In this document: one piece after another, positions 7,486 to 37,255 of the stretch
Numbering within the stretch: position 1 is the stretch's first letter
Layout of the letters: every line of letters starts with the position of its first letter
Assembly: GCF_900166625.1 (NCBI RefSeq)
Contig: NZ_LT800499.1
Coordinates: 407,197 to 448,055, forward strand
DNA from: Halobacillus massiliensis
GTDB lineage: Bacteria; Bacillota; Bacilli; Bacillales; Halobacillaceae
Length of the DNA: 40,859 bases
Direction: 5' to 3'
The notes under the pieces: generated by a model
What the model was told of the DNA's origin: nothing
What the model saw: the letters and a program-made list of their open reading frames with translations, nothing else
Databases searched by the model: none
Position numbers and translations under genes: made by a program

Positions 7486-7657
7486 GTTCCGTTTACCGTG
7501 ATAAAGAGGACCGGGCCTGGGGAAACAACTCGCTTTCCATGGGCGAACGGTGAGCTTCCTCGGGCTTTTAGCCCTCCGGGATCTCCCCCTGTTCTATCCT
7601 CCCATAGGAGTCTCGCTGTTTCCCCCGGCCCTTTATGTTTTCTTAGAGTAACGGAAC
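7486..7657 (+). repeat. Dispersed hairpin repeat, type A (cluster 1)
   Basis: It is bounded by GTTCCGTTTA and TAACGGAAC. Internally GGGCCTGGGGAAACA pairs with TGTTTCCCCCGGCCC as an outer stem, with an inner GGGCTTTTAGCCC hairpin. It is nearly identical to 36751-36920 and is present inverted at 20696-20856. An ORF crosses it on the minus strand but has no ribosome site or conservation with the other copies. Confidence 0.9.
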
Positions 7658-7703
7658 CATAAAGCAAGAGGACTAAGGTATAGGATCTTCTTCCAAAAAA
7701 AGT

Positions 7704-7868
7704 GTTCCGTTTATACCATCAATGGTAAAAGAGGCTGGGAAATGGCGAGACTCCTGCAGGGAGATAGAGCCATGGTGAGATCCACGAGTGTAACGAGTTA
7801 GCTCACCGGCTCCCCGCGGAAAGGGAGTCATTTCCCAGCCTCGTTCCTCTTTATAAAGTAAACGGAAC
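7704..7868 (-). repeat. Dispersed hairpin repeat, type B (cluster 1)
   Basis: It is bounded by GTTCCGTTTA and TAAACGGAAC. GAGGCTGGGAAATG pairs perfectly with CATTTCCCAGCCTC. Inner stems are GACTCC/GGAGTC, GAGCC/GGCTC and GGTGAG/CTCACC. It is oriented opposite to the A copy 46 bp upstream, and closely matches 36969-37131. Confidence 0.9.
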
Positions 7869-8022
7869 CGTCTTTACCCATTCTAAAAATGGGAAATAGC
7901 AGGCCTCCTACTGGAAGATAGTGACAGGGCGTGATCCGAGGGTGAAACGAGCTAGCTCACCGGCTCTCCACAGAAAGTGAGTGAATTCCCAGCCCCTTTT
8001 GCCTTTCAATAGTAGACGGATC
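7859..8022 (-). repeat. Dispersed hairpin repeat, degenerate type B (cluster 1)
   Basis: It shares its left terminus TAAACGGAAC with the previous copy and ends in the decayed TAGACGGATC. The GGGAAAT arm, the GCTAGCTCACCGGCTC core and the ATTCCCAGCC arm are retained. Confidence 0.75.
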
Positions 8023-8098
8023 AGCTCTTTCTCTATCACAATTGAGAAAAAACGGGTAATTTCCCAGCCTCTATTTTCATAACTATAGTAAACGGGAC
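8023..8098 (-). repeat. Truncated hairpin repeat remnant (cluster 1)
   Basis: Only the AATTTCCCAGCCTC arm and the terminus TAAACGGGAC remain, ending 18 bp before the pspC-type gene's 3' end. Confidence 0.6.
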
Positions 8099-8116
8099 AG
8101 GCATAAACCAGGAAAG

Positions 8117-8317
8117 CTATTTCTGTGCCTCTTGGTCTGTCGGCATAATAATAGCGGCTACAATATATACGACAAGCAGGAAGCCGCTGCTTAAGAAAAT
8201 ACCGACAGCATATAAAATTCTCAGCAGGCTGGCATCAATGTCATAAATCTCGCTAATCCCGCCAAGGGTACCTGTCAGCATTTTGTTACTTGTGGATTTG
8301 TACAGTTTCTTTTTCAT
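8117..8317 (-). CDS. Small PspC-domain membrane protein
   Basis: The 66-residue protein has the PspC core: KKLYKSTSNKMLTGTLGGIS, YDIDASLLRILYAV and a hydrophobic segment SGFLLVVYIVAAIIMP. PspC domains are found in membrane-stress sensors and in small Bacillus proteins such as YvlC. The frame extends further upstream, but the ATG at 8317 follows AAGGAGATGG at good spacing. It overlaps the 3' end of the GNAT gene by 32 bp, so the two are translated from one message. The function is not clear from sequence alone. Confidence 0.8.
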   Translation of the reverse strand: MKKKLYKSTSNKMLTGTLGGISEIYDIDASLLRILYAVGIFLSSGFLLVVYIVAAIIMPTDQEAQK

Positions 8318-8783
8318 TTTTACCATCTCCTTCATGTAAATCCTTCGAGAATACAACCATATCAAGGGCCTGTATTCCATTTTCAAAAATCGGGTGGGGA
8401 TAACTTAAAAAGAAATCTTTACGTATCCTTTCAAATCGGAATCCAGCTTTTTGATAAAAGCTTAAGTTAGCCAGGCTGGAATTGGCAGTCCCTACAATCA
8501 TGCGGGCATATCCTTTTTGTTTATAAAGTTGAAAGGCTTCACCTATGACTGCCTTACCTATTCCTTTCCCTTGTTCACCTTCCTTTAAAGCTATATTTTT
8601 GATTTCGACCATATTGGCTTCAGGGAACGTAAACAGGCAGACACCGATATTATTTTGTTGATATTGGATAACATACATTTCACCTTCATTAATATACTCC
8701 ATAATAATATCTTCATTCTCATCCGCTAACAGGAGAAGCGGCAGATAATCCTTGCGATTATGAACATGTTTTAAATAAGCCAT
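8286..8783 (-). CDS. GNAT-family N-acetyltransferase
   Basis: The 165-residue protein shows the acetyl-CoA pyrophosphate loop EQGKGIGKAVIGEAF at about residues 68-82, preceded by the beta strand MVEIKNIAL and followed by ANSSLANLSFYQKAGF, the family's B motif. The substrate is unknown. The start ATG at 8783 is preceded by AAGAAGGAG. Its last 32 bp overlap the PspC-domain gene. It is not similar to the acyltransferases of hydroxamate siderophore pathways, although an N-hydroxylase gene lies divergently at 9266. Confidence 0.85.
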   Translation of the reverse strand: MAYLKHVHNRKDYLPLLLLADENEDIIMEYINEGEMYVIQYQQNNIGVCLFTFPEANMVEIKNIALKEGEQGKGIGKAVIGEAFQLYKQKGYARMIVGTANSSLANLSFYQKAGFRFERIRKDFFLSYPHPIFENGIQALDMVVFSKDLHEGDGKNEKETVQIHK

Positions 8784-8896
8784 TTCAAAATCTCCTTCTT
8801 AATTGCTGTTATTCTCTACGTCTAGTAAGAAAATTCGTTTCATTTTGAATTCATGTTACAATTTTTATAATAAACAAGTTCACGAGGAGGGGTTAT

Positions 8897-9067
8897 ATGC
8901 AGCGGAAAATATCGGTTGCCGGATGGTTGTTATTTTTGTGTGGGGGTGCGCTGTGGCTTTTTGGTATCGACTTGCCGATTGAGGAAGCGGATTCTGTATT
9001 GATCGGTTTAGGAGCGGTTCTGCTTCTCTTCTCAGGAATTATGAAAATGAACAGCCAGCAATCGTAA
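8897..9067 (+). CDS. 56-residue two-helix membrane protein
   Basis: The reading frame starts at an ATG behind GAGGAGGGG, a strong ribosome site, and codes MQRKISVAGWLLFLCGGALW followed by a polar turn (DLPIEEADS) and a second hydrophobic segment (VLIGLGAVLLLFSGIM). It ends in a short polar tail. A promoter-like TTGAAT/TATAAT region lies at about 8851-8872 and a terminator follows, so it looks like a free-standing small gene. I do not recognise a family. Confidence 0.65.
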   Translation: MQRKISVAGWLLFLCGGALWLFGIDLPIEEADSVLIGLGAVLLLFSGIMKMNSQQS

Positions 9068-9082
9068 TTTTCCTTGCTTCGG

Positions 9083-9108
9083 GCGTGGTGAGAAACCGCG
9101 CTTTTTTT
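9083..9108 (+). terminator. Intrinsic terminator after the 56-residue ORF
   Basis: GCGTGGT (9083-9089) and ACCGCGC (9095-9101) pair around GAGAA, followed by seven T residues. Confidence 0.85.
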
Positions 9109-9265
9109 GTTGTTTTATTTATTGCATAGATTTCAAAAATAGTAAATGCTAAAAAAGGGATTAAGATCGCTGTTACTGTTTTTAAAAAGATTATGGTAAC
9201 ATGAGAAAAGCGAAAAGTTCTGGAAACATAGGACGTTTTTCAGAAAAAGGAGTAGTGAACAATTA

Positions 9266-10576
9266 ATGGCACAGCAGGATGAAAAAATATATGACTTAAT
9301 CGGGGTAGGAATTGGACCTTTTAATTTAAGCCTCGCTGCTTTACTGGATGAGATAGATGAGACAGATACCTTATTCTTTGAAAAAAAGGAACACTTCGAC
9401 TGGCATCCGGGGATGTTAATCGAAGGAACGAAGCTGCAGGTTCCTTTTTTAGCGGATCTCGTCACAATGGCTGATCCTACTAATAAACACAGCTTCCTAA
9501 ATTACATTAGTGAAAATGACCGTATGTATCAGTTCTATTTTCTTCAGCGTCTTGATATTCCTCGCAGGGAATATAATGATTACTGCCAGTGGGCAGCCAA
9601 TCGATTGGACAGCTGTAAATTCGGGTACCGTGTTACCTCCATTCAGCATGTAAGGGAAGACGAATCCTATTTCCTTGTAGATGTTGAGAACAATGCAGGT
9701 GATTCCAAGACGTACAGAACAAAGCATGTCGTTATGGGAACAGGGAGCGTACCGGCTATGCCTAAGTCATTTAAAGGACTTTCGAATAAAGATGTCTTCC
9801 ATACAGCTGACTATGTACAAAATCAGGATCGATGCACAGCTGCAAAGTCTGTAACGGTCGTAGGGTCTGGCCAGAGTGCGGCAGAAACGTTTCGTGAGCT
9901 GCTGAAAGAGCAGCGTGAGCACGGCTTCCGTCTTGACTGGATTACCAGATCTTCGGGTTTTGCATCTATGGAGGAGTCTAAGCTGAGTCTGGAGCACTTT
10001 TCACCGGATTACGTCAATTATTTCTACAAGCTTCCCCAGGAGGATAAAGATAAGATTTTTGCTACTCAAGGGTTGTATTATAAAGGGATCAGCAACCATA
10101 CGATTGAAGATATTTATAATCTTCTCTATGAGTATTCTATTGGGGATGATGAGTTAAATGTCGGGCTGCAAGTATTAACAGAGGTAAATGGTGTTAAGCA
10201 GAAAGGAGACGGTTACGTACTGGACTGCTATCACTGGCAGAAAAAAGAATCCTTTCAGCACGAAAGCGAAGTAGTGATCACAGCTACAGGTTATCAGCCG
10301 AATATCCCTGAGTTTATCCATTACTTAGAGGATTTTCTTGAATGGGATGACCGTGGCCGATATAAAGTAGAAGCCGATTACCGATTAAAGAAAACAAAAG
10401 ATGTGCCTAATGAAATTTATGTACACAGCGGGATTTCCCATTCCCATGGTGTAGGTTCCACTAATCTTGGACTGGCTGTACATCGTAACAAAGTAATAAT
10501 CAATCATTTGATGGGACGGGAAGTATTCAAGATTCCGGCAAAAGGAATCTTTCAATCATTTGATGTTCAACATTAA
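9266..10576 (+). CDS. Amino-acid/diamine N-monooxygenase (IucD/SidA/RhbE family)
   Basis: This 436-residue flavin monooxygenase is of the class that N-hydroxylates lysine, ornithine or short diamines as the first step of hydroxamate siderophore synthesis. It has the FAD motif GVGIGPFNLS (13-22), the substrate-pocket region FLADLVTMADPTNKHSFLNY, the NADPH motif VVGSGQSAAE and the C-terminal ATGYQP. It uses FAD and NADPH in the cytoplasm. No siderophore synthetase or acetyltransferase is adjacent; the next genes make ornithine. Which amine it uses cannot be told. The ATG at 9266 lies 13 bp after AAAAGGAG. I found no clear Fur box upstream. Confidence 0.88.
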   Translation: MAQQDEKIYDLIGVGIGPFNLSLAALLDEIDETDTLFFEKKEHFDWHPGMLIEGTKLQVPFLADLVTMADPTNKHSFLNYISENDRMYQFYFLQRLDIPRREYNDYCQWAANRLDSCKFGYRVTSIQHVREDESYFLVDVENNAGDSKTYRTKHVVMGTGSVPAMPKSFKGLSNKDVFHTADYVQNQDRCTAAKSVTVVGSGQSAAETFRELLKEQREHGFRLDWITRSSGFASMEESKLSLEHFSPDYVNYFYKLPQEDKDKIFATQGLYYKGISNHTIEDIYNLLYEYSIGDDELNVGLQVLTEVNGVKQKGDGYVLDCYHWQKKESFQHESEVVITATGYQPNIPEFIHYLEDFLEWDDRGRYKVEADYRLKKTKDVPNEIYVHSGISHSHGVGSTNLGLAVHRNKVIINHLMGREVFKIPAKGIFQSFDVQH

Positions 10577-10578
10577 AG

Positions 10579-10621
10579 AACTGCATGGAGTGCTTATACA
10601 GCACCCGTGCAGTTTTTTTTA
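10579..10621 (+). terminator. Intrinsic terminator after the N-monooxygenase
   Basis: AACTGCA pairs with TGCAGTT and inner GTGCT with AGCAC, followed by eight or more T residues. It isolates the gene from the arginine operon. Confidence 0.85.
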
Positions 10622-10698
10622 TATTTTTTGTAAACGCTTACTAAGAGGCGGCTGTCGTATTTATTTATTTGAATGACATAAAACAGCAAAAAATACGG

Positions 10699-10727
10699 TT
10701 GACAGATTTTATTACAGGAGTGATAAT
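10699..10727 (+). promoter_or_regulatory. SigA promoter of argCJBD
   Basis: A perfect -35 TTGACA (10699-10704) and GATAAT (10722-10727) are spaced by 17 bp, 60 bp before argC and immediately upstream of the ARG boxes. Confidence 0.75.
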
Positions 10728-10730
10728 AGC

Positions 10731-10764
10731 ATAAATATACGATATTTATAATATTTATACATAC
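10731..10764. promoter_or_regulatory. Tandem ARG boxes (ArgR/AhrC operator) before argC
   Basis: ATAAATAT-ACG-ATATTTAT at 10731-10749 is a perfect 19-bp palindrome of ARG-box type. A second half-site-rich stretch ATATTTATACATA follows at 10751-10763. They lie over the transcription start region, as expected for arginine-dependent repression by an ArgR/AhrC hexamer encoded elsewhere. Confidence 0.7.
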
Positions 10765-10786
10765 AGATAAAAGAGGTGATGAACGA

Positions 10787-11818
10787 TTGGAAATCGGTAT
10801 AGTGGGCGCAACAGGATATGGCGGTGTAGAGCTGTTCAGGCTGTTAAACGGACATTCAAATGTAGAAAATATTCATCTGTATTCTTCTTCCCAGGCAGGT
10901 GAGTTTTTTGAAGGAATATACACTCACGTGAATAATCAATCATATGAGCTTCAACCGCTTCATCCAGATAAAATGAAGCAGCTCGATATCATCTTTCTTG
11001 CGACACCTCCCGGGGTCTCAAGTGGTCTGACACCTCAGCTTACGGGCGGTAAAGCTAAAGTAATTGACCTATCGGGAGATTTAAGGCTGAAGGATACTGA
11101 AGTTTATACAGAATGGTATAAACAGGAGGCTGCACCACAATCAGCTATTAATGAAGCAGTGTATGGTCTTCCGGAATGGAATAAAGAACACATAAAGCAG
11201 GCATCAGTGATTGCAAATCCCGGCTGCTATCCAACCGCCGTATTGTTAGGGCTTGGACCTGTTGTAGAAAGCGAGATAGCGGATCCTGACACCATCATAA
11301 TTGATGCAAAGTCGGGTGTTTCCGGGGCAGGGAAAAATGCCAATGCAGTCACTCATTTTGCACACACGCAGGAAAATCTCCGAATCTATAAAGTGAATCA
11401 GCACAAACACATTCCTGAAATTGAGCAGCAGCTTAAAATTTGGAATGAAACGATAAAACCGGTAACTTTTTCTACGCACTTAGTTCCGATGACACGAGGA
11501 ATCATGGCAACGATTTACGTTGAACCGGCCAAAGAAGTATCGTTGGAAAATATTCACGCATTGTATGAAGAGGTTTATGAGTCTCACCCGTTTATCCGTA
11601 TTCGAAAGCTTGGTGATTTCCCGAGTACCCGCGATGTTTATGGATCGAATTACTGTGATATCGGAATAACTCTCGATGATCGAACCGGCCGTCTGACAAT
11701 AGTTTCAGTCATTGACAATTTGATGAAGGGGGCTGCGAGTCAGGCCGTTCAAAATATGAACATTATTTTAGGAATTGATGAAACGACAGGACTGGATCTT
11801 GTGCCAGTCTTTCCATAA
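10787..11818 (+). CDS. argC: N-acetyl-gamma-glutamyl-phosphate reductase ArgC
   Basis: The 343-residue NADPH-dependent enzyme makes N-acetylglutamate semialdehyde, the third step to ornithine. The Rossmann motif GIVGATGYGG is at the N terminus and the catalytic Cys147 lies in ANPGCYPTA. The SGVSGAGKNA and C-terminal sequences are typical and the length is normal. The start is TTG at 10787 with AGAGGTGATG at proper spacing. It is first in argCJBD, 25 bp before argJ, downstream of a TTGACA promoter and ARG boxes. Confidence 0.97.
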   Translation: MEIGIVGATGYGGVELFRLLNGHSNVENIHLYSSSQAGEFFEGIYTHVNNQSYELQPLHPDKMKQLDIIFLATPPGVSSGLTPQLTGGKAKVIDLSGDLRLKDTEVYTEWYKQEAAPQSAINEAVYGLPEWNKEHIKQASVIANPGCYPTAVLLGLGPVVESEIADPDTIIIDAKSGVSGAGKNANAVTHFAHTQENLRIYKVNQHKHIPEIEQQLKIWNETIKPVTFSTHLVPMTRGIMATIYVEPAKEVSLENIHALYEEVYESHPFIRIRKLGDFPSTRDVYGSNYCDIGITLDDRTGRLTIVSVIDNLMKGAASQAVQNMNIILGIDETTGLDLVPVFP

Positions 11819-11843
11819 TAGGTAAAAGAAAGGGAGAGAGCGA

Positions 11844-13070
11844 TTGATTCAACTAACGGACGCAGGCAGTATCAAGAAGGTGGAAGAGGGGACGGTAACC
11901 TCGCCTAAAGGATTTGTTTCAGGAGGAGTGCACTGTGGGCTTCGTCGATCAAAAAATGACTTTGGATTATTAATGAGTGAGCAGCCCGCCTCCGCAGCGG
12001 CCGTTTACACGCAGAGTCATTTTCAAGCTCCTCCGCTTAAGGTAACACAGGAGAGTATAGCAGAAGAACAGAAGATTCAAGCCATAGTGGTCAACAGTGC
12101 GGTTGCTAATGCGTGTACGGGTAAAGAAGGTCTCTTGAACGCTTATCAAATGCGAGAGCTGGTGGCGAAGCGTTATCAAATTTCATCTCATTATGTAGCT
12201 GTCGCTTCAACAGGAGTAATTGGAGAGCAGCTGGATATGGAAAAAATAAAATACGGAGCAAAGGCAGTAGAGGTTAACCAGCAGGAAGCGCATGCTTTTC
12301 AACAGGCAATCTTAACAACAGATACTTGTGAAAAATCCTCCTGTTTCCAGGTAGAGATCGACGGGCAGACGGTAACGATTGCTGGTGCGGCTAAGGGATC
12401 TGGAATGATCCATCCCAATATGGCCACAATGCTAGGGTTTATAACGACAGATGCGAAGATCGAATCTGAACACTTACAAACTGCTTTAAGTCATTGTATT
12501 GATCAATCGTTCAATCAGATTACGGTTGATGGAGAGACATCGACAAACGACATGGTGCTAGCACTTGCAAATGGAAAAGCTGCAAATAAGGAATTACATC
12601 CAGAACATAAGCAGTGGGCAGAATTCCAGCAGGCCCTTTTACTCGTTTGTGAAGATTTAGCGAAACAAATTGCTAAAGATGGTGAAGGAGCTACGAAGCT
12701 GATTGAAGTGAATGTCTCAGGAGCCAACTCCAACAAAGAGGCTAGAGCGATTGCCAAAAAGGTTGTAGGCTCGAATTTAGTAAAGACGGCAGTGTATGGA
12801 GTGGATGCCAACTGGGGTAGAATCGTTGGGGCTATCGGCCATAGTGAAGCGGAAGTACAAGCCGATCGCTGTGATATCTTTATTGGCAAGCAGCTCGTTT
12901 TTAGTGAAGGTACACCGCATCTATTTTCTGAGGAACAGGCGAAGGAAGATATGAAGAAGGACAAGGTGAAGATTCAAATAAACCTGCATCAGGGCAATGG
13001 AGCAGGAACAGCCTGGGGGTGTGACCTGACCTATGACTACGTCAAAATCAATGCCAGCTATCGCACATAA
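11844..13070 (+). CDS. argJ: Bifunctional ornithine acetyltransferase / N-acetylglutamate synthase ArgJ
   Basis: The 408-residue enzyme transfers the acetyl group from N-acetylornithine to glutamate, recycling it, and in bifunctional members also makes acetylglutamate from acetyl-CoA. The precursor cleaves itself before the nucleophile Thr195 in HPNMATMLGF; GAAKGSGMIHP precedes it. YGVDANWGR and the C-terminal [15 protein letters not shown] region are conserved. The start is TTG at 11844 behind AAAGGGAGAG. The 3' end overlaps argB by 38 bp. No separate argA or argE is present here, consistent with the cyclic pathway. Confidence 0.96.
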   Translation: MIQLTDAGSIKKVEEGTVTSPKGFVSGGVHCGLRRSKNDFGLLMSEQPASAAAVYTQSHFQAPPLKVTQESIAEEQKIQAIVVNSAVANACTGKEGLLNAYQMRELVAKRYQISSHYVAVASTGVIGEQLDMEKIKYGAKAVEVNQQEAHAFQQAILTTDTCEKSSCFQVEIDGQTVTIAGAAKGSGMIHPNMATMLGFITTDAKIESEHLQTALSHCIDQSFNQITVDGETSTNDMVLALANGKAANKELHPEHKQWAEFQQALLLVCEDLAKQIAKDGEGATKLIEVNVSGANSNKEARAIAKKVVGSNLVKTAVYGVDANWGRIVGAIGHSEAEVQADRCDIFIGKQLVFSEGTPHLFSEEQAKEDMKKDKVKIQINLHQGNGAGTAWGCDLTYDYVKINASYRT

Positions 13071-13845
13071 ACCCGTCATCGTCGTGAAAATTGGAGGCAG
13101 TATGGTTGACTGCTTGAGTGAAGACTTTTACAAAAGTCTTGCTTTATTATCGGAGTACTATCATTGTGTAGTCGTTCATGGCGGCGGGCCGGCGATTACT
13201 TCATTGCTTCAAGCACTGAAGATTGAAGGAGAATTCTATAATGGCCTGCGTAAAACAACACCTGAAACTCTTGAAGTTGTGAAAATGACACTCGGAGGTA
13301 CAGTCAGTGCACAAGTAACTTCAGCTCTTGAAAAACATAGCGTTTCAGCACTTGGATTAAAAGGATGTGACGGTCAGCTTCTTCAAGCAAGCTTTGTAGA
13401 TCAGGAGAAGCTGGGTCTCGTAGGAAATATAGAACAAGTCAACACAGCCTTGATCCATCAGCTTCTTGTAACTGGCTACCTTCCGGTGATAGCCCCGCTT
13501 GCAGTTACGGAGAATGGTCAGACCGTTAACGTCAACGCCGACGTCGCAGCTGCTGCCGTTGCGGATGCCCTGCAGGCAGAGAAGCTTTTATTTGTTACAG
13601 ATGTACCTGGTATTTTAAACGGTGAAACAATGATCGAGCGAATTACGCCGAATGAGATTCACCAATTAATAGACACAGAGGTCATATACGGCGGTATGAT
13701 TCCAAAGGTAAATTCAGCGATTGATGCTTTATCTGAAAAGTTAAAAGAAGTACTGATTGTCAGTGGAGAACAGTCACTGTTGAAAGATGGAATGATTAAA
13801 GGAACAACGATTTACCATGAGGTAACGGAAGGAGCGGTTCGATGA
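13033..13845 (+). CDS. argB: Acetylglutamate kinase ArgB
   Basis: This amino acid kinase phosphorylates N-acetylglutamate. Visible features are VVKIGGSM (phosphate loop), [22 protein letters not shown]-type sequence and [10 protein letters not shown] near the C terminus. As annotated it has 270 residues, about ten more than Bacillus subtilis ArgB. The ATG at 13033 lies inside argJ and has only a weak GGGGGTG site. The ATG at 13051 would give a more usual N terminus but lacks a site of its own, so translational coupling is likely and the start is uncertain. The stop overlaps the argD start by 4 bp (ATGA). Confidence 0.95.
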
Positions 13846-14993
13846 GTTTATTTCCGACCTACAATCGGTTTCCATTTACGATTGAGTCCGGAGAGGGGAC
13901 GGTTGTCCGGGACGACAGCGGAAAAGAATATCTGGATTTCGTTTCTGGTATTGCTGTCTGTAATTTAGGCCACCGCCCTTTAGTTGTCCAAGAAGCCATT
14001 GAGGAACAGCTGAAAAAGGTATGGCATGTTTCTAACTTATATCAAATTCCTATTCAGGAAGAAGCGGCTCAACTGCTTACAGAAGCTTCTGGTCTTGACT
14101 ATGCCTTTTTCTGTAACAGCGGAGCTGAGGCTAACGAAGCAGCTATTAAGCTGGCTCGGAAGCATACAGGGAATGACAAGATCATTACATTTAAACAGTC
14201 CTTTCACGGCAGGACATTTGCGACGATGAGCGCAACCGGCCAGGAAAAGATACAGGAAGGCTTTGGAACCCTGCTGCCTACCTTTGAATACCTCCCATTT
14301 AATGATGAGTCTGCTGTGGCAGAGCTAATGGGAGAGGGTGCAGCAGCCATTATGGTTGAAGTCATTCAAGGAGAAGGCGGCGTCATAGAAGCTGATGAAG
14401 CCTTTCTAAAGGCGATAGAGAAAAAGTGTGCGGAAACAGGAGCGTTATTCATTATAGATGAAGTGCAGACAGGAGCAGGGAGGACGGGGTCACCGTTTGC
14501 GTTTCAACATTACGGGCTTTCCCCTGATATTATTACATCAGCCAAAGGGCTAGGAAGCGGTTTTCCTGTTGGCGCTATGGCAGGGAAAGCTTACTTAAAG
14601 GAATCATTTTCTGCAGGCTCCCACGGCTCGACATTTGGAGGGAATCCGCTGGCTTCAGCTGCAGTGAAAGCAACGTTATCTACCATTTTCAAAGATCAGT
14701 TTCTGCATGAGGTGAACGAAAAGAGCACTTATTTTATGAAACTGTTAAAAGAGAACCTGGAAGGTCTCCCGGGAGTAATGGAAGTTCGGGGAAAAGGAAT
14801 GATGATCGGAATAGAGGTTGAATCAGAAGCCATCGAGTATGTTCACAAGCTGCGTGAAAACGGACTGCTGGCTGTTTTAGCAGGACCTAAAGTTATCAGA
14901 CTTCTGCCTCCATTAACGGTCAGTTACCAGGAACTTGATCAGGCGCTTCAATTGCTGAAAAAAGTCTTAAGTACAGAGTTCAGCCGGACTTAA
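13842..14993 (+). CDS. argD: Acetylornithine aminotransferase ArgD
   Basis: The 383-residue class III aminotransferase converts N-acetylglutamate semialdehyde to N-acetylornithine with glutamate as donor. The pyridoxal-phosphate lysine is Lys235 in [43 protein letters not shown] and STFGGNPLA are all conserved. It overlaps argB by ATGA, indicating coupled translation, and is followed by a terminator before carA, so it closes the first arginine block. Confidence 0.96.
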
Positions 14994-15027
14994 ACTTTGA
15001 CAGGGAAGCCCCCTGCAAAGTTTTTTT
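14992..15027 (+). terminator. Intrinsic terminator between argD and carA
   Basis: AAACTTTG-A-CAGGG pairs with CCCTGCAAAGTTT with one bulge, followed by a T-run. It splits the arginine cluster into two transcriptional blocks, unless read through. Confidence 0.85.
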
Positions 15028-15068
15028 ACGGGTTTCAATGAATTAATATACTATTTAATTTATAAATA
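15025..15068 (+). promoter_or_regulatory. carA promoter with overlapping ARG boxes
   Basis: TTTACG (15025-15030) and TATACT (15047-15052) with a 16-bp gap form a plausible promoter that starts in the terminator tail. AATGAATTAATATAC (15037-15051) and the palindrome TATTTA-N5-TAAATA (15052-15068) resemble ARG boxes and overlap the -10 and start. This fits separate arginine repression of carAB-argF. Confidence 0.55.
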
Positions 15069-15085
15069 TACGGTGAGGTGGAACT

Positions 15086-16150
15086 ATGCAAGGGTTTCTA
15101 ACATTAGAAAAAGGTCAGGTGTTTGAAGGCAAAGCCTCGAACAGCTGGGAGGCTCCTATTGAGGGGGAGGTTGTATTTTATACAGGGATGACAGGCTATC
15201 AGGAAGTTTTAACAGACCCTTCTTATCGCGGGCAGATCGTAGTCTTCACCTATCCCCTAATCGGAAATTACGGCATTAATGAAGCCGACTCAGAAAGCGT
15301 GCAGCCGCAGGTGAGCGGTGCAGTGATGTTTCAATGCTCAGATTCAGTCTCTCATTATCAGGCAGAGATGACATTAAAGGACTATTTGAATAAATGGAAT
15401 GTCCCTTTCCTGACTGGTGTAGATACACGAGAAGTTACGAAAGCGATTCGGACAGAAGGATCTTGCCAGGGGGTGCTCGCCAATAAAACGGTGAAGCCAT
15501 CTGATACAAAGTCGGCAGGACAGATTTTCCAGGCTCATGATCCGAAAATAAAAAAATATGGAACAGGGAATAAGCGCGTGGCGCTGATTGATTTCGGATT
15601 TAAAACATCCATTCTTGATAAGCTGCTTGAGGAAGACATCCAGGTTACTGTGTTTCCTTTTACGAAAATACACGAAGTGCATAAACTTCAGCCGGACGGG
15701 GTGGTGCTCTCTAACGGACCAGGAGACCCTAAAGACGCTTCTCCCTATTTACCCGAAATAAAAGCAGTGCTTGAGAAATATCCTTCGCTTGGAATCTGTC
15801 TGGGACACCAGGTCATTGCTCTAGCTTTCGGGGCGGACACGAAGAAGCTTGCCTTCGGCCATAGAGGGGCCAATCACCCGGTAAAAGACCTACAGTCCGG
15901 TCAAGTATTTCTCACATCGCAAAACCATAATTATGTCGTTAACCGTGACAGCCTTGCCGGTACGGTGCTTGAAACGTGTTTTATAAATGTAAACGATGGA
16001 TCAGTGGAAGGGTTACTGCACCCTTCAAAGCCGATTCTCACCGCCCAGTTTCACCCCGAAGCAAATCCGGGACCGGAAGACGCTCAGTGGGTTATTGAAG
16101 AATTTCTATCTATGATGTCATCGGCGAAAGGAGCAAAAGTATATGTCTAA
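15086..16150 (+). CDS. carA: Carbamoyl-phosphate synthase small subunit, arginine-specific
   Basis: The 354-residue glutaminase subunit supplies ammonia to CarB. The N-terminal interaction domain begins MQGFLTLEKGQVF. The class I amidotransferase domain has the nucleophile Cys238 in LGICLGHQ and the His-Glu pair in QFHPEANPGP. The gene sits with argF rather than with pyr genes, which marks it as the arginine-regulated copy. GGTGAGGTGG precedes the ATG, and the last 8 bp overlap carB. Confidence 0.96.
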   Translation: MQGFLTLEKGQVFEGKASNSWEAPIEGEVVFYTGMTGYQEVLTDPSYRGQIVVFTYPLIGNYGINEADSESVQPQVSGAVMFQCSDSVSHYQAEMTLKDYLNKWNVPFLTGVDTREVTKAIRTEGSCQGVLANKTVKPSDTKSAGQIFQAHDPKIKKYGTGNKRVALIDFGFKTSILDKLLEEDIQVTVFPFTKIHEVHKLQPDGVVLSNGPGDPKDASPYLPEIKAVLEKYPSLGICLGHQVIALAFGADTKKLAFGHRGANHPVKDLQSGQVFLTSQNHNYVVNRDSLAGTVLETCFINVNDGSVEGLLHPSKPILTAQFHPEANPGPEDAQWVIEEFLSMMSSAKGAKVYV

Positions 16151-19100
16151 GAAAGTACTCGTCATCGGTTCAGGACCAATTGTTATCGGGCAGGCAGCTG
16201 AATTTGACTACTCAGGAACACAAGGCTGCCTGGCTTTAAAGGAAGACGGTCACGAAGTCGTACTCGTTAATAATAATCCAGCAACGATAATGACAGATAC
16301 AGAAGTAGCCGACACCGTCTACTGTGAACCACTGACTGTGAAAAGTATAGAAGCTATTATTCAAAAAGAACAGCCTGAAGCTGTGCTCGCAGGGCTGGGC
16401 GGACAGACAGGCTTAAATTTAGCGGTTGAAATGAATAAACATGGAATCTTTGAAAAATACAATCTTGAACTTCTCGGCACTAGTGTTGCTTCCATTCAGC
16501 AGGGAGAAGACCGCGAACTGTTCCGTGAGCTGATGCATGAGCTAGGGCAGGATGTTCCTGAAAGCCGAGTAATAGCAAGTGTAGAGGAAGCTGTACAATT
16601 TACGGAGGATTTCGGCTTTCCAATCATCAGCCGTCCAGCATATACCTTAGGAGGCCGTGGTGGCGGGATTACCGATAATCTTGAAGAAATGAAGGACCTG
16701 GTCCATAACGGTTTAAAAGCCAGTCCGATCGGTCAGGTTATTATAGAAAAAAGTATTGCCGGCTTTAAAGAGGTCGAATATGAAGTAATGCGTGATGCGA
16801 AAGGTACGTGTATCAGTGTCTGTAATATGGAAAACTTTGATCCCGTCGGGGTGCACACCGGAGATTCTATCGTAGCTGCTCCGTCCCAGACGCTTACAGA
16901 TCAGGAATATCAAATGCTGCGTACCGCTGCCTTTAAAATAATTTCAGCTCTCGAAGTCATTGGAGGCTGTAATGTTCAGTTTGCATTGGATCCTTATAGC
17001 AAGAAATACTACGTCATTGAGGTCAATCCCCGGGTAAGCCGCTCATCAGCTCTTGCCTCAAAGGCGACAGGTTATCCTATTGCAAAAATGGCAACAAAGC
17101 TGGCGCTTGGCTACTCGCTCGATGAGCTGATTAACCCATTAACTGGTACAACATACGCAAGCTTTGAACCTGCTTTAGACTATGTGGTAGTTAAATTCCC
17201 GCGCTGGCCTTTTGATAAGTTTTCAAAAGCCGATCGTAAGCTTGGCACAAAAATGAAGGCGACAGGTGAGGTTATGGCTATCGACCGGACACTGGAGGGG
17301 GCTTTTCAAAAAGCAGTATCCTCCCTGGACCAGTCGATACCAGAGCTTAACGAGGAAGAGCTTTATGATCATCTCACTAAACCTACAGATTTACGCTATT
17401 TCGCGATTCAGGATCTCTTAAGAAAAGGGAAGACGATTGAAGAAATTCATCAAGTGACAGGCATCGATTTATTTTACTTGCAAACGGTCAAACACCTGAT
17501 TGATACGGAAAATAAGCTTAAGCAAAGCGAGCTGGACAACGATCTAATAAAACAGGCGAAAATCTATGGATTCACAGATGAGCAAATTGCCAGCCACAGC
17601 GGGGTAACATCACATCATATAAAGAAAACGCGAGAAGAGTACGGCATCAAGCCTGGCTATAAAATGGTAGACACATGTGCCGCTGAATTTGAAGCAGCCA
17701 CCAATTATGTGTACACCACTTATGCAGGGAACAATGAAATACAGCCGCTGACAGGGAATAAAAAAGCATTAATTGTAGGTTCAGGTCCGATTAGAATCGG
17801 TCAGGGTGTCGAATTTGATTATAGTGCCGTAAAAGCCATTGAAAGCCTGAAAAAACTAGGCTGGACGACAATTATGATTAACAATAACCCGGAAACCGTC
17901 AGCACGGATTATACAACAGCAGATCGGCTATATTTTGATCCAATTAACAAAGAAGTCATTCAATCGATTGTCGAGCATGAAAACGTGGATCTCGTATTTA
18001 CACAGTTTGGCGGCCAGACAGCGATTAACATTGCAGAAGAGCTTGAAAATGCAGGGATACCTTTGGCCGGCGTAAGTGTAGATACTATCGCTCAGCTTGA
18101 GGACCGAGAGCAATTTTACACGATGCTGAAGGAACTTGATATTCCGCACATCCCAGGTTCTACATGTCACAGTATGGAAGAGGCCTTAGAAGCGGCAGCC
18201 TCTTATTCATACCCGCTGCTCTGCCGTCCATCTTACGTCATTGGCGGCCAGGGCATGTTCAAGGTAAACAGCGAAAAAGAGCTGGAGGAAGCCTTAAAAG
18301 AAACGGAAGCTCACCATTATCCGATCGTACTGGATCAGTTTATGACAGGAAAAGAAGCAGAGGTCGATCTTGCAGCAGATGGAGAGCATGTTTATATTCC
18401 CGAAATTATGGAGCATGTAGAGCCTGCCGGTATTCACTCAGGAGACAGTATGGCCGTATTCCCATCACAGAATTTGTCGCCAGAGGTAAAAGAAACACTC
18501 GTTCAATACGCCAAACGTATCGTTCAAAAGGTGAAATACAAAGGGATGATGAATATTCAATTCCTGCTTACTGATAATGAAATTTATGTACTGGAGGTTA
18601 ACCCACGTGCGAGCCGTACAGTACCTATTATTAGTAAAGTATCGGAAGTCTCCATGATCGACCTTGCCGTAAAAGGCTTAACCGACGATCCTAAATTAAA
18701 CCTTAAAGAGATAAAGCAGCCGGAATTCGGAATGATTGCCGTCAAATATCCCCTGTTTTCTTCTCACGCGCTTCCTGAACTGGACCATAAGCTGGGGGCT
18801 AATATGCTATCTACAGGAGAAGGCATGTGCTTAGGCCAAACGGTAACAGAAGCAATGGCTAAAGTGTTTGAACACCTGCCAAGTCCATTTGAGAATGAAG
18901 AAGTCTGTTTAATCGAAACATCTAAGCTTGTAAAAGGAAAGTCGAGCGACCTTAAATTTTCGGATTGGATTCAATCGGAAGAAGCTCAAGTTTATATGAA
19001 TGATCAGAACACAAAGGAAGCGGCTGAAAAGAGAATACAGGCATTAAAGAGCGGCATTACCGTATTCAGTCAAGCTGATACCTTTAACGCTTATATAGAT

Positions 19101-19169
19101 TCACTCAGTGGGGACCCTTATCAGCCAGCCCCGCTGCCAGGAAGTTTAAAAAAAGAGGAGTGCGTATAA
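16143..19169 (+). CDS. carB: Carbamoyl-phosphate synthase large subunit, arginine-specific
   Basis: At 1008 residues it shows the expected tandem architecture: two homologous ATP-grasp halves, the first starting KKVLVIGSGPIVIGQAAEFDYSG and the second (about residue 540) KALIVGSGPIRIGQGVEFDYS. A helical oligomerisation region lies between them. The C-terminal allosteric domain is shortened compared with pyrimidine-type PyrAB (about 1070), which fits arginine-specific CarB that is not controlled by UMP/PRPP. It makes carbamoyl phosphate for the adjacent argF. It starts within carA and ends one base before the argF ATG. Confidence 0.96.
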   Translation: MSKKVLVIGSGPIVIGQAAEFDYSGTQGCLALKEDGHEVVLVNNNPATIMTDTEVADTVYCEPLTVKSIEAIIQKEQPEAVLAGLGGQTGLNLAVEMNKHGIFEKYNLELLGTSVASIQQGEDRELFRELMHELGQDVPESRVIASVEEAVQFTEDFGFPIISRPAYTLGGRGGGITDNLEEMKDLVHNGLKASPIGQVIIEKSIAGFKEVEYEVMRDAKGTCISVCNMENFDPVGVHTGDSIVAAPSQTLTDQEYQMLRTAAFKIISALEVIGGCNVQFALDPYSKKYYVIEVNPRVSRSSALASKATGYPIAKMATKLALGYSLDELINPLTGTTYASFEPALDYVVVKFPRWPFDKFSKADRKLGTKMKATGEVMAIDRTLEGAFQKAVSSLDQSIPELNEEELYDHLTKPTDLRYFAIQDLLRKGKTIEEIHQVTGIDLFYLQTVKHLIDTENKLKQSELDNDLIKQAKIYGFTDEQIASHSGVTSHHIKKTREEYGIKPGYKMVDTCAAEFEAATNYVYTTYAGNNEIQPLTGNKKALIVGSGPIRIGQGVEFDYSAVKAIESLKKLGWTTIMINNNPETVSTDYTTADRLYFDPINKEVIQSIVEHENVDLVFTQFGGQTAINIAEELENAGIPLAGVSVDTIAQLEDREQFYTMLKELDIPHIPGSTCHSMEEALEAAASYSYPLLCRPSYVIGGQGMFKVNSEKELEEALKETEAHHYPIVLDQFMTGKEAEVDLAADGEHVYIPEIMEHVEPAGIHSGDSMAVFPSQNLSPEVKETLVQYAKRIVQKVKYKGMMNIQFLLTDNEIYVLEVNPRASRTVPIISKVSEVSMIDLAVKGLTDDPKLNLKEIKQPEFGMIAVKYPLFSSHALPELDHKLGANMLSTGEGMCLGQTVTEAMAKVFEHLPSPFENEEVCLIETSKLVKGKSSDLKFSDWIQSEEAQVYMNDQNTKEAAEKRIQALKSGITVFSQADTFNAYIDSLSGDPYQPAPLPGSLKKEECV

Positions 19170-19170
19170 T

Positions 19171-20154: not shown

Positions 20155-20175
20155 CGTATTTTATCTTATCTGTCT

Positions 20176-20330
20176 GTTCCGTTTATCAAGTATGGATAAA
20201 AGCGGCTGGGGAAATGACTCGCTTTCCACGGGGAGCTGGTGAGCCAGCTCGTTGCACCCTCGGATCACGGCCCGGACACTATCTCCCAGTAGGAGTCCTG
20301 CCATTTCCCAGGTTTAAAAAGGTAAAGACG
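20176..20330 (+). repeat. Dispersed hairpin repeat, type B, tandem copy 1 (cluster 2)
   Basis: It begins GTTCCGTTTA and carries GGCTGGGGAAATGACTCGC and the arm GCCATTTCCCAGG. It abuts the next copy through the shared boundary GGTAAAGACGGTTCCGTTTA. Confidence 0.85.
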
Positions 20331-20482
20331 GTTCCGTTTACTGTAGAAAGAGGAACGAGGCTGGGAAATAGCTCGCTTTCCGTGGGGAGCTGGTGAGCCA
20401 GCTCGTTGCACTCGCGGATCACGCCCTGCCACTATCTTCTAGTAGGATCCTTCCATTCCCATGTTTAGAAGGGGTAAAGACG
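20331..20482 (+). repeat. Dispersed hairpin repeat, type B, tandem copy 2 (cluster 2)
   Basis: The 152-bp unit repeats in direct orientation. GAGGCTGGGAAATAGCTCGC and the GAGCTGGTGAGCCAGCTCG core match copy 1 closely. The right arm has decayed (CCATTCCCATG). Confidence 0.85.
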
Positions 20483-20645
20483 GTTCCGTTTATTGTAAAA
20501 AGAGAAAAGCGGCTGGGAAATAGCTCGCTTTCCGCGGGGAGCCGATGAGCTAGCTCGTTACACTCGCGGATCTCATCTTGGCTCTTCTCCCTGCAGGAGT
20601 CTCGCCATTTCCCAGCCTCTTTAAATTTAATGGGGAAAACGGAAC
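20483..20645 (+). repeat. Dispersed hairpin repeat, type B, tandem copy 3 (cluster 2)
   Basis: It begins GTTCCGTTTA and ends AAAACGGAAC. The outer arms are GGCTGGGAAAT and ATTTCCCAGCC. The inner stem reads GATGAG/CTCATC where the sister copies have GGTGAG/CTCACC, a paired change. Confidence 0.9.
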
Positions 20646-20695
20646 GCTGTAATCTCAGTAAGCTCTCTAATGGGAACGATCCTATCTTCTTAAAT

Positions 20696-20856
20696 GTTCC
20701 GTTACTCCAAAAAACGTAAAGGGCCGGGGGAAACGGCGAGACTCCTATGGGAGGATAGAACAGGGTGAGATTAAAAGCCCGAGGAAGCTCACCGTTCGCC
20801 TATGGAAAGCGAGTTGTTTCCCCAGGCCCGATTCTCTCTCCTAAGGTAATCGGAAC
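20696..20856 (-). repeat. Dispersed hairpin repeat, type A (cluster 2, inverted)
   Basis: It is bounded by GTTCCGTTA and TAATCGGAAC. Read on the minus strand it matches the A copies at 7486 and 36751, including the AGCTTCCTCGGGCTTTTA segment. The 50-bp spacer to the B copy shares sequence with the cluster 3 spacer. Confidence 0.9.
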
Positions 20857-31756: not shown

Positions 31757-31757
31757 G

Positions 31758-31790
31758 AAGACAGGTTCCCATAAGGAGCCTGTCTTTTTT
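31758..31790. terminator. Bidirectional terminator between convergent genes
   Basis: AAGACAGGTTCC pairs with GGAGCCTGTCTT (one G-T pair) around CATAA, followed by TTTTTT. It overlaps the 3' end of the minus-strand gene. Confidence 0.85.
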
Positions 31791-32391: not shown

Positions 32392-32576
32392 TGCATCATC
32401 CCCTAGTGATTTTGATAGTAGATTTCCCGGAAATTCTTAAAATAAACCAGATCACTCACTGACAGAAAGGGGAGGGTTCTGGAAATTTACGTATTTATTG
32501 GATGGTAAGCCTCTTATAAGGTTTGGGGAATAATTTTTTAGATTCAGGTTTTTAAATAAAGGGCCTGGGAAAGAGA

Positions 32577-32585
32577 TGTTATAAT
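32577..32585 (+). promoter_or_regulatory. Extended -10 promoter for the oxidoreductase gene
   Basis: TGTTATAAT is a TGnTATAAT element 31 bp before the start codon. No good -35 box is seen. The rest of 32392-32576 holds no gene that I can support. Confidence 0.5.
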
Positions 32586-32616
32586 TTAGTAAATCCATCC
32601 AAGGAGGAATTATGTT

Positions 32617-33585: not shown

Positions 33586-33586
33586 G

Positions 33587-34987: not shown

Positions 34988-35051
34988 ATATTAATTAGGA
35001 AAATTTATTCTTGGCCTAAGAGCCTCAGGTTTTCTAAAGGAGGAATTCTAT

Positions 35052-35195
35052 TTGAGTTGGTTACATGGAATCTATACGACCCGCTATCTGTTTGTGGTCT
35101 TTTTTTCGATAACCTCTCTTAGTCTGCTTACTTATCAATCTATCGCTATATTCAATGCATTTGCGGAATTCTTTGAATTTCTCCGGAGAAGTTAA
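35052..35195 (+). CDS. 47-residue hydrophobic ORF upstream of the IS
   Basis: The TTG at 35052 lies 7 bp after AAAGGAGG, a near-perfect ribosome site. The product MSWLHGIYTTRYLFVVFFSI continues as one long hydrophobic segment and ends EFFEFLRRS. It lies 64 bp after the amidase, before the terminator that the IS has split. A small single-span membrane protein is plausible. I recognise no family. Confidence 0.5.
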   Translation: MSWLHGIYTTRYLFVVFFSITSLSLLTYQSIAIFNAFAEFFEFLRRS

Positions 35196-35249
35196 CCTGT
35201 ACAAAGAGAGAGGCGAATCGGTAGTGACCCCTGAAAGTTAGAGTTTTTA

Positions 35250-36051
35250 TTATGCAGCTGATTGGCTGGTTTGAGTTCGGTATTGTATGGGACTTAAACC
35301 AGCCAATTTTGCTTTTATGCGTTCATTATTATAGTAGTTCACATATCCCTCAAGTTTTCTTTTAAGCTCTTCATAAGAAACCAGTTCTTCTCCGTAATAC
35401 ATTTCCTGTTTGAGAATCCCGAAAAAATTCTCCATCGCTGCGTTATCTGCGCAGTTTGCTTTTCTGGACATACTTTGAAAGATTTGATGTTTCTTTAAGG
35501 TTTTCACCCACGTGTTATGTTGATAATGCCAGCCTTGATCGGAGTGGATGGTTGTTCGGTATTCGGCTTCCGTTCGACACTGCTTCATTCAACGGCTTTA
35601 AAACAAGGTCCAGGGTTGGTCGTTTAGAAATTCCAAAAGAGACAATTTCCCCATTAAATAAGTCCATAATCGGGCTTAAATAAAGCTTCTCATTTCCTGC
35701 ACATTTGAATTCCGTCACATCTGTGACTAATTTTTGGAGCCGTATTGGCGTGTGGAACCTGCGTTTTAATCGATTATGAGCCACTTTCCCAACTGTACCT
35801 TTGTACGATTTATACCGGGATTTTCTAGTGAATTTCTCACACTTCAATCCGAGCTCACCCATGATCCGATGAACTTTTTTATGGTTGATCCTATACCCCT
35901 GATTTCTAAGCTCGAAAGCAATGCGGCGATAGCCATATGTCCCGTTGTGCTTATGAAAGAGTTTCGTAATTATTTCTTTCCACTCTTTATTCGGATCTTC
36001 CTTCTGTAACTGCTTCTTCTGGTAATGATAAGTGGCTTCAGGAATGTCCAC
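35250..36051 (-). pseudogene. IS3 OrfB transposase, frameshifted
   Basis: The DDE integrase domain is split between two frames that overlap at 35515-35588. The upstream part carries the helix-turn-helix-like GTYGYRRIAFELRNQGYRI and the first catalytic Asp in VTDVTEF. The downstream part carries the second Asp in TIHSDQGWHYQ and the Glu in NAAMENFFG, and ends with YNNERIKAKLAGLSPIQYR. One extra base (or two missing) near 35570-35580 would account for the shift, after KPLNEAV. Before its first ATG the orfB frame is open into orfA in the -1 frame, as expected for IS3 programmed frameshifting, but no classic A6G slippery run is seen. A sequencing error is possible. Confidence 0.85.
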
Positions 36052-36068
36052 TCTTCGTAAAGCGTCTT

Positions 36069-36632
36069 TTACTTTGAATCCTTCTTGTTTGAGTTCGAAT
36101 ACCAGCGCTGCTTGTGCTTTTCGAGATAGGCGTCCGGATTCTCCTGAAAAGCTTTTAACTTTTTTAGATAAGAATTCTCTAAACGTAGGAGTTCATTTTC
36201 ACGTTCCAATTGTTCTTCCCGAGTTGGTGCTTTTTCTGTTTTGGGTAACTTTTTCTTAGGTTTTTTTGACATAGAAGGCCGTCCTTTCGCTTTTTCCTGG
36301 AGGCCCTCGCTCCCTTCCTTCTGAAATATGTTGGCCCAGCTCGCAATTAAAGCAGGGTTGTTCAGTTGGAAGGCAATCGCAGTCTCCTGAAGAGAAGCTC
36401 CTGTCTGTTTCCTAAAGTTTAATACATCCATCTTGAATTGGACAGGGTGGACTTGTTTGGAATGCTTCCTTTTTAACCCTTCTTCTCCAAATGCTTGATA
36501 AGCACGAACCCAACGTAAGATTTGAGCATCACTAGGAATGGAGTACTTTTTAGCTAATAAAACGTATCCTTTATGTCCTTGAAGATATTCCCTTACCACC
36601 TTCAATTTAAATTCCTTACTATACTTTGCCAT
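36069..36632 (-). CDS. IS3 OrfA, helix-turn-helix protein
   Basis: The 187-residue protein begins MAKYSKEFKLKVVREYLQGH, the usual IS150-type OrfA start. It has two helix-turn-helix units (YSIPSDAQILRWVRAYQ and FQLNNPALIASWANIF), a Lys/Pro-rich linker and a C-terminal leucine-zipper-like stretch (LERENELLRLENSYLKKL). OrfA binds the element ends and is normally fused to OrfB by a -1 frameshift. The frame extends to 36662, but the ATG at 36632 is clearly the family start. Confidence 0.92.
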   Translation of the reverse strand: MAKYSKEFKLKVVREYLQGHKGYVLLAKKYSIPSDAQILRWVRAYQAFGEEGLKRKHSKQVHPVQFKMDVLNFRKQTGASLQETAIAFQLNNPALIASWANIFQKEGSEGLQEKAKGRPSMSKKPKKKLPKTEKAPTREEQLERENELLRLENSYLKKLKAFQENPDAYLEKHKQRWYSNSNKKDSK

Positions 36633-36638
36633 AGAAAA

Positions 36639-36678
36639 CACCCCGGAAGTTAGATTTTTCACTCTAACTTCCGGGGTG
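36639..36678 (-). other. 16-bp-stem palindrome at the orfA end of the IS
   Basis: CACCCCGGAAGTTAGA (36639-36654) and TCTAACTTCCGGGGTG (36663-36678) pair perfectly around TTTTTCAC, partly inside the right inverted repeat. In the orfA mRNA leader it would hide the start region when transcription enters from outside, a common way for ISs to limit impinging expression. Confidence 0.7.
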
Positions 36679-36750
36679 CACTACCATCATGCCTCTCTCT
36701 TTTTTCTAATATTAGGTTCTCACTTAAACGTGGAGATGCAATGCTGCTCG

Positions 36751-36920
36751 GTTCCGTTTACCGTGACAAAGAGAACCGGGCCTGGGGAAACAACTCGCTT
36801 TCCATGGGTGAACGGTGAGCTTCCTCGGGCTTTTAGCCCTCCGGGATCTCCCCCTGTTCTATCCTCCCATAGGAGTCTCGCCGTTTCCCCTGGCCTTTAT
36901 GTTTTTTGGAGTAACGGAAC
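36751..36920 (+). repeat. Dispersed hairpin repeat, type A (cluster 3)
   Basis: It is bounded by GTTCCGTTTA and TAACGGAAC. The interior is nearly base-for-base the same as 7486-7657, including the CTTCCTCGGGCTTTTAGCCC segment. Confidence 0.92.
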
Positions 36921-36968
36921 ATTTAGTGAGATAAGACTATCTCTTCTCAAGATTAATAAGACTACAGC

Positions 36969-37131
36969 ATTCCGTTTTAACTATCACCGGTAAAGAGGCT
37001 GGGAAATGGCGAGACTCCTGCAGGGAGATAGAGCCATGGTGAGATCCGCGAGTGCAACGAGCTAGCTCACCGGCTCCCCGCGGAAAGCGAGCTATTTCCC
37101 AGCCGCTTTTTACTGCTCCAGCAAACGGAAC
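36969..37131 (-). repeat. Dispersed hairpin repeat, type B (cluster 3)
   Basis: It is bounded by ATTCCGTTTT and CAAACGGAAC and oriented against the A copy 48 bp upstream. GGCTGGGAAAT pairs with ATTTCCCAGCC, with inner GAGCC/GGCTC and GGTGAG/CTCACC. It is close to 7704-7868. Confidence 0.92.
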
Positions 37132-37255
37132 AGCCATTTTCCTTCATAAAAGTGAGGTAAACCAAGGGAAATGGTGAGGTCCGGGAGTTCACCGGCTCCC
37201 CGTGGAAAGCAAGTCATTTCCCAGCCGCTTTTCTCCGTTACTTGATAAACGGAAC
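37122..37255 (-). repeat. Internally deleted type B repeat (cluster 3)
   Basis: It shares the CAAACGGAAC boundary with the previous copy and ends TAAACGGAAC. GGGAAATGGTGAGG and the TTCACCGGCTCCCCG core remain, but about 30-40 bp of the left arm and loop are lost. Confidence 0.8.

Follow-up and report, generated by a model that had tools for sequence, protein, structure and literature searches.

Several described families of insertion sequences and bacterial repeats offer points of comparison for intergenic hairpins of the kind considered here. According to PMC8101967, insertion sequences (IS) of the IS1595 family usually produce 8-base target duplications, carry a single transposase gene and, except for one group, encode an N-terminal zinc finger. 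Among repeats of Bacilli, bcr1 of the Bacillus cereus group measures 147-167 bases and is linked to mobile-element features by the title of a cited reference, and Bhal-1, Efa-1 and Sta-1 (Petrillo et al. 2008) are likewise stem-loop repeat families of Bacilli (PMC2267715). In the present study, we analyze a composite hairpin module that occurs three times in a stretch of 40,859 nucleotides of the Halobacillus massiliensis genome (contig NZ_LT800499.1, positions 407,197 to 448,055; hereafter the window, and its source the window genome), and in which a repeat of type A faces a repeat of type B across a short spacer. We consider it probable that this module is a non-autonomous, fold-back element of the IS1595 type, resembling miniature inverted-repeat transposable elements (MITEs).

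Compared with the systems above, the bounded elements of relatives share with the IS1595 family (and with eukaryotic Merlin) ends that start with GG, 8-base duplications and, in autonomous copies, a transposase with a zinc ribbon and a DDE domain, whereas the modules of the window encode no transposase and those of the window genome show neither such ends nor such duplications. Like MITEs, the hairpin elements are short, have inverted terminal repeats and occur in many intergenic copies, with target duplications around the elements of relatives; unlike MITEs, the hairpin-bearing elements with recognizable ends are larger composites, spanning 274-1212 bases and mostly holding an inner, outward-pointing pair of structurally conserved hairpins. 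The comparison with bcr1 (similar size, mobile-element features) and with Bhal-1, Efa-1 and Sta-1 is at the level of description (PMC2267715). The repetitive extragenic palindromes (REPs) and the composites built from them (REPINs and bacterial interspersed mosaic elements, BIMEs) are also inverted palindrome pairs behind genes, but they differ from the module in size, in that no intact gene for a REP-associated tyrosine transposase (RAYT) was found in the window genome, and in that the module arms are repeated in tandem rather than alternating. A paired grammar corresponding to the A-spacer-B arrangement is not known for bcr1.

Hairpin elements with IS1595-type ends in related genomes

Paired and single hairpins in sister species and genera are bounded by ends of the IS1595 type (GGCTNTGTTAAAG...CTTTAACANAGCC). 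The ends are sharp (GGCTTTGTTAAAG...CTTTAACATAGCC) in H. campisalis (G003) and in the close strain Halobacillus sp. A1 (G007), where 16 elements of 494-1073 bases could be paired end to end. Among 23 bounded elements, collected from the fetched family loci with at most one mismatch per end (elements with worse ends, e.g., one of 660 bases, were dropped), exact 8-base target duplications flank 13 (shuffles: mean 0.75, maximum 5), and duplications identical in at least seven of the eight bases flank 17 (shuffles: mean 1.74, maximum 8). The duplications are AT-rich. The hairpin motif is present in 16 of the 23, nine of which have exact duplications and 12 duplications matching in at least seven of the eight bases; examples are L338 (identical to L358), which has one hairpin in 274 bases, and L362 from another genus, an outward hairpin pair spanning 640 bases. 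More broadly, a 25-base pattern representing the ends was found in 20 of 44 family genomes, and its reversed control had no match.

A transposase that shares these ends with the hairpin elements does exist in strain A1. An element of 2834 bases there (L356), bounded by IS1595-type ends and an exactly duplicated target sequence (TTATATTT), codes for a protein of 350 residues. This protein matches the NCBIfam IS1595 transposase model (209 bits, cut-off 75), Pfam DDE_Tnp_IS1595 and the IS1/IS1595 zinc domain (40 bits, cut-off 28). The same element carries TGGAAGACTCAGTTTCGAGATA, a motif that the H. campisalis elements likewise have immediately inward of their ends. A second intact transposon copy in A1 (L367) measures 1999 bases and has an exact duplication as well, and transposase fragments are present in three further genomes (G002, G008 and G010). 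The larger A1 element also holds small passenger frames, one of them YesK-like (L356 565-1600); close to the left end, on its inner side, the sequence reads as a terminator-like hairpin (150-230).

The initial annotation had proposed that the module moves or acts as one piece. In support of this, A and B are kept in a fixed order and orientation in the window genome (below), and pairs in H. campisalis and other relatives are bounded by transposon ends, often with 8-base duplications, so that they move as one piece there; for the window genome, we infer movement rather than observe it. Under the mechanism that we propose, A and B would be the two arms of one element, now diverged, each consisting of one long hairpin copy that points outward, and an IS1595-family transposase would act in trans on the ends and insert the whole element as one piece. 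Insertions near promoters would be lost, leaving persisting copies mostly behind genes, and local tandem duplication would add further A and B units. Given that the window genome no longer has the transposase and that its module ends are altered or decayed, the modules there probably date from earlier movement. The hairpin shape would serve the element itself under this mechanism, for instance as a block to transcripts entering from its surroundings or as a label by which the transposase recognizes the ends.

Two side observations concern related hairpins. In the argF-nhaC gap (L212 and L213, 4940-6000), hairpins of H. campisalis have lost their interiors at the same places in A1, probably through palindrome-linked deletions. 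On a plasmid of B. subtilis, a distant genus, a hairpin of the family adjoins TTTAACAGAGCC, which resembles an IS1595-type end (L378 1590-1620).

Module grammar across the H. massiliensis genome

The window genome (4.31 Mb) encodes an ornithine transcarbamylase (OTCase) 80% identical to that of H. campisalis. It was sampled as 80 evenly spaced 20-kb stretches (1.6 Mb, 37% of the genome), which were searched with profiles grown from the window copies, and matches below 60 bits were excluded from the cluster counts. Deduplication by identity of the best unit reduced 60 clusters to 56, the four dropped duplicates having arisen from scaffold gaps. In L071 and L118, this procedure retained a truncated copy at the expense of a fuller one, and clusters split by gaps in L091, L108 and L109 are still counted as two each, so that the cluster counts may be off by a few.

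The 56 clusters comprise 84 A and 80 B units, and 47 clusters contain both types. In 46 of these 47, all A units come before all B units in a single orientation; in L137 alone, one short fragment of A is reversed. The initial annotation had set its reading against a genome in which A and B occur independently, in random orientation and without bias to convergent gaps; the near-invariant order and the enrichment of convergent gaps (below) differ from that pattern. At the 42 full junctions, the spacer measures 41-55 bases by the profile borders (52 bases in 18 cases), and the spacers sort by eye into three similar groups. Additional units are tandem A copies on the A side and tandem B copies on the B side, and 18 of the 21 A-to-A linkers belong to one of two length classes (26-31 and 47-52 bases). 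By extrapolation from 56 clusters in 37% of the genome, there may be about 150 module sites in total. In Mantel comparisons of inter-module distances (35 modules), A is correlated with B at r 0.30 (p 0.0026) and the spacer with B at r 0.25 (p 0.014); the correlation of A with the spacer is weaker (r 0.17, p 0.077).

Six of the sample stretches contain scaffold artefacts of the public assembly at clusters, in the form of N runs or a single N beside exact duplications of flanking sequence (L069 at 9000-20000, L071, L091, L108, L109 and L118), a point of practical use for genome assembly and annotation. In L069, the 4.6-kb stretch that holds cluster 3 of the window appears three times in succession; N runs are present in L101 and L119 as well. 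Some clusters seemed to contain 3-kb insertions flanked by long duplications, but these proved to be scaffold gaps of this kind. Behind one and the same tRNA gene, the window genome has an A-A-B cluster (L007) and the relative G010 a pair in the opposite order (L190). At five sites compared with G010, which are about 79% identical to the window genome, there is another hairpin type, a pair in the opposite order, or nothing, with no clean junction readable.

Ends of the modules in the window genome and points against an IS1595-type origin

The modules of the window genome end in GTTCCGTTTAC on one side and GTAAACGGAAC on the other, and homology of the flanks stops there in 29 of 42 left and 32 of 38 right ends. 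Since a similar TTTCCGT border is situated inside the IS1595-type ends in H. campisalis, the window-genome modules may represent the inner part of older insertions, or else elements with changed ends. The IS1595-type origin of the modules in this genome is thus one that we infer.

Several results weigh against such an origin. Searching the window genome for the 25-base end pattern gave a single match, located in a sample stretch that has no module; three matches were obtained for its 13-base form. None of the module-holding sample stretches is matched by the H. campisalis end model. Eight-mers common to both module flanks were found in 43 of 48 cases (shuffles: mean 37.7, maximum 44), which is not clearly above chance; flank-shared 9- and 10-mers are not above shuffles either, and none of the 23 full modules has an exact repeat of at least six bases at its outer ends. 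The transposase has no match in seven of 11 genomes of the genus, including the window genome and H. campisalis, the latter with more than 100 copies of the elements. Among the bounded elements of relatives, six of 23 match in fewer than seven of the eight flank bases. A 40-kb comparison revealed one 660-base paired module that is present in H. campisalis and absent from A1 (segments 91.7-96.8% identical), a difference that in itself speaks for movement as one piece, but this element has no exact duplication and may hence have been lost from A1. Finally, the hairpin covaries more strongly than a passive passenger would require (next section).

An autonomous partner was also sought at L079, where no transposase was found. 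L079 (8740-9970) and L077 (13570-14805 and 16700-17950; this stretch also holds an N) do contain repeated small-gene cassettes between arms with GTGGAAGACTCAGTTTCGAGATA, a motif that occurs just inside IS1595-type ends; these cassettes may be another mobile unit.

A conserved hairpin shared by A and B

Type A queries match B on the opposite strand and vice versa, mostly with 69-74% identity over about 100 bases. Judged by these alignments, A and B are diverged copies of one hairpin of about 110 bases in opposite orientation, and the module as a whole is a single imperfect inverted repeat. RNA folding of cluster 3 gave -69.3 kcal/mol for A, -72.0 for B and -181.7 for the composite (-191 on the other strand), from which it follows that the module can form either two hairpins or one giant hairpin. 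In the window clusters, the stems of both units are followed by T-rich stretches in which, as read from the sequence, the T-tracts are interrupted.

A pattern fixing GA.[AT]CTCC and GGAAAGCGA collected 58 cores of this hairpin from the window genome and other genera, 42 of which were aligned (the 16 left out are mainly near copies). In this alignment, from which the structure itself was derived, 91.9% of cells are paired, 26 of 42 pairs have changes on both sides, and covariation amounts to 0.387 vs. 0.175 in shuffled alignments and 0.06-0.08 with slid partners; some internal-loop letters are constant. Among the 41 A units of the window genome, double changes occur in none of 36 pairs, making covariation uninformative at that level. 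Neighbouring cores point outward in 49 of 57 cases and are in tandem in eight (all in the window genome); none point inward. Strong covariation together with constant internal-loop letters suggests that the shape matters, be it for the element or for the host. A neutral alternative is arm-to-arm correction, as correction of quasi-palindromes can maintain the complementarity of arms without function.

Covariance-model (CM) searches (E <= 1e-5, at most 12 candidates scored per genome) matched 229 of 299 genomes of the host's order, in 91 of 116 genera. In a search of the class, 74 of 299 genomes had a match, and 59 of the 74 lie outside the order. The statement in the initial annotation that repeats with similar cores are widespread in Bacillaceae thus holds, and over a wider range than it had named. 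The same key letters recur in five distant cores, some from the order and some from beyond it. With the core L377, from another family of the order, 15 named plasmids were matched, all from Bacilli (Peribacillus, Priestia, Bacillus, Paenibacillus and Niallia), and 13 of the 15 have no annotated feature at that place; the window B core and the distant core L373 had no match among plasmids, and the phage search gave none.

Rfam has no match in the window, and for cluster 3, the five distant cores and two hairpin-bearing stretches nothing at the hairpin lies above the gathering threshold, the sole match above it being a SAM riboswitch elsewhere in L322. Weak matches at cluster 3 to two microRNA families and to S. 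aureus tsr24 are far below their cut-offs and were rejected. No description of the hairpin was found among the literature matches listed, most subscription papers being outside that search. The core of this repeat is hence a covarying structure in most sampled genomes of the order that is matched by no Rfam family; because one covariance model detects it, its transcription, binding partners and mobility are directly testable.

Gene context

Genes were called with our own gene finder, which assigned 79% of the sample bases as coding. The 56 clusters lie in 24 convergent, 28 codirectional and two divergent gaps (one of the latter adjoining a scaffold gap), with two more at stretch edges. Against a background of gaps of at least 50 bases (121 convergent, 533 codirectional and 184 divergent), convergent gaps are enriched for clusters (odds ratio 5.7, p 3e-8) and divergent gaps depleted (odds ratio 0.13, p 2.5e-4); in codirectional gaps, 15 modules run with the genes and 13 against them, an even split. 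These counts indicate that modules sit behind genes, convergent pairs being only part of the picture. Accordingly, the claim of the initial annotation that the module always lies between convergent genes is valid for all three gaps of the window (ignoring the IS), but convergent gaps are not its exclusive location genome-wide.

A module lies within 400 bases of 70 gene ends that face it (owing to a duplicated stretch, one of these ends is counted twice); 37 of them have their own intrinsic terminator ahead of the module, and 33 show none. The corresponding figures are 167 of 288 at module-free convergent ends (30 more, with gaps below 30 bases, were left out) and 185 of 558 at codirectional ends (344 left out), against one of 350 in random sequence. 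Serving gene ends that have no other terminator is thus not the rule for these modules, and the 37 ends with their own terminator count against the module as the main terminator, while the remaining 33 show no other.

Alternative explanations

It could be argued that the modules are two-way transcription terminators or protectors of 3' ends that are kept for convergent genes, with their spread being secondary. Their strong bias to gene ends, the very stable folding of A and B with T-rich stretches after the stems, and the facing ends that show no terminator of their own are all consistent with such a role; yet the rate of own terminators at facing ends is near that of module-free convergent ends and above that of codirectional ends, half of the clusters lie in codirectional gaps with almost even orientation, and the T-tracts are interrupted, so that we regard this explanation as distinctly unlikely. 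Fairly unlikely in our view is that host selection acts on the hairpin as a functional structured RNA (or a structured site in single-stranded DNA) to which a host protein binds, with transposon ends carrying it along. The compensatory changes, the covariation well above that of shuffled and slid controls, the constant internal-loop letters and the distribution over most of the order and 59 genomes beyond it would fit such a site, while the copy number, the decay of tandem units and the target duplications in relatives look selfish. Moreover, the A copies of the window genome show no double changes, the core pattern itself fixes part of the conserved letters in an alignment of 42 of the 58 cores, and the correction of quasi-palindromes described above weighs against this idea as well.

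Homologous recombination and tandem duplication between resident repeats, with no transposition at all, could have grown and spread the arrays, and would leave tandem A and B units with linkers in two classes as well as interior hairpin deletions between close strains, all of which are found; that these processes acted alone is improbable in view of the relatives, whose dispersed elements have sharp ends and target duplications. That the modules are elements of the REP, REPIN or BIME type spread by a RAYT (Y1) transposase appears highly improbable, even though inverted palindrome pairs with fixed spacing behind genes recall REPINs. The units are 110-170 bases long vs. 20-40 for REPs (PMC3733652), and the duplications in relatives are of 8 bases. 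An intact RAYT gene, sought in the window genome, was not found; the only Y1_Tnp match there is a partial stretch broken by two stop codons.

We favor, as stated above, a non-autonomous IS1595-type element, a reading that links a large group of intergenic repeats with a transposase family whose ends can be tested. A bolder extension, tentative and rather doubtful to us, starts from the conservation of this hairpin, for which we found no name, in shape and internal-loop letters over much of the Bacilli: it would be a functioning component (as RNA or as single-stranded DNA) of IS1595-type transposons, carried as an outward pair, that has accumulated by the hundreds at the ends of host genes and may set borders of transcription or DNA folding there.

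The three clusters of the window

The three modules lie where the initial annotation had placed them, with A facing B across spacers of the lengths it gave, and cluster 2 is inverted relative to clusters 1 and 3 (Table 1).

Table 1. Units of the three A-spacer-B clusters and an adjacent IS in the window (coordinates in window positions; CM, covariance-model match)
Feature	Coordinates	Strand	Details
Cluster 1, unit A	7486..7657	+	core reversed; ends GTTCCGTTTAC / GTAACGGAAC; CM 7516-7630 minus, 118 bits
Cluster 1, spacer	7658..7703	+	46 bases
Cluster 1, unit B	7704..7868	+	core forward; CM 7731-7840 plus, 81.5 bits
Cluster 1, extra tandem B unit	7869..8023	+	degenerate; CM 7885-7994, 27.7 bits
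Cluster 1, further remnant	~8055-8099		from reading of the sequence only
Cluster 2, two extra tandem B units	20174..20482	-	CM match for the outer one only, 20205-20315 minus, 42 bits
Cluster 2, unit B	20483..20645	-	CM 20511-20619 minus, 92 bits
Cluster 2, spacer	20646..20695	-	50 bases
Cluster 2, unit A	20696..20856	-	apical part short by 10 bases; CM 20722-20826 plus, 84 bits
IS3-like transposase frames	35250..36662	-	HTH (helix-turn-helix) and rve domains; between amidase gene and cluster 3; outside the module
Cluster 3, unit A	36751..36920	+	CM 36781-36895 minus, 117 bits
Cluster 3, spacer	36921..36968	+	48 bases
Cluster 3, unit B	36969..37131	+	CM 36995-37104 plus, 89 bits
Cluster 3, extra partial B unit	37132..37255	+	profile match in sample stretch L069; no CM match

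Across clusters, the main A and B copies are 84-96% identical over gap-free stretches of 61-148 bases, far above chance, and the extra tandem units of the window are more decayed (73% identity for one). The neighbouring genes agree with the names first given to them, i.e., the EIICB component of a phosphotransferase system (PTS) and PspC around cluster 1, OTCase and a Na+/H+ antiporter around cluster 2, and an amidase and a methyltransferase around cluster 3, with the IS3-like element in between. The window starts with a period-9 tandem array (2-424, 28 overlapping copies listed) that extends into a reading frame (278-772) without a Pfam match; besides this array, the three clusters are the main repeats that the repeat finder returned for the window.

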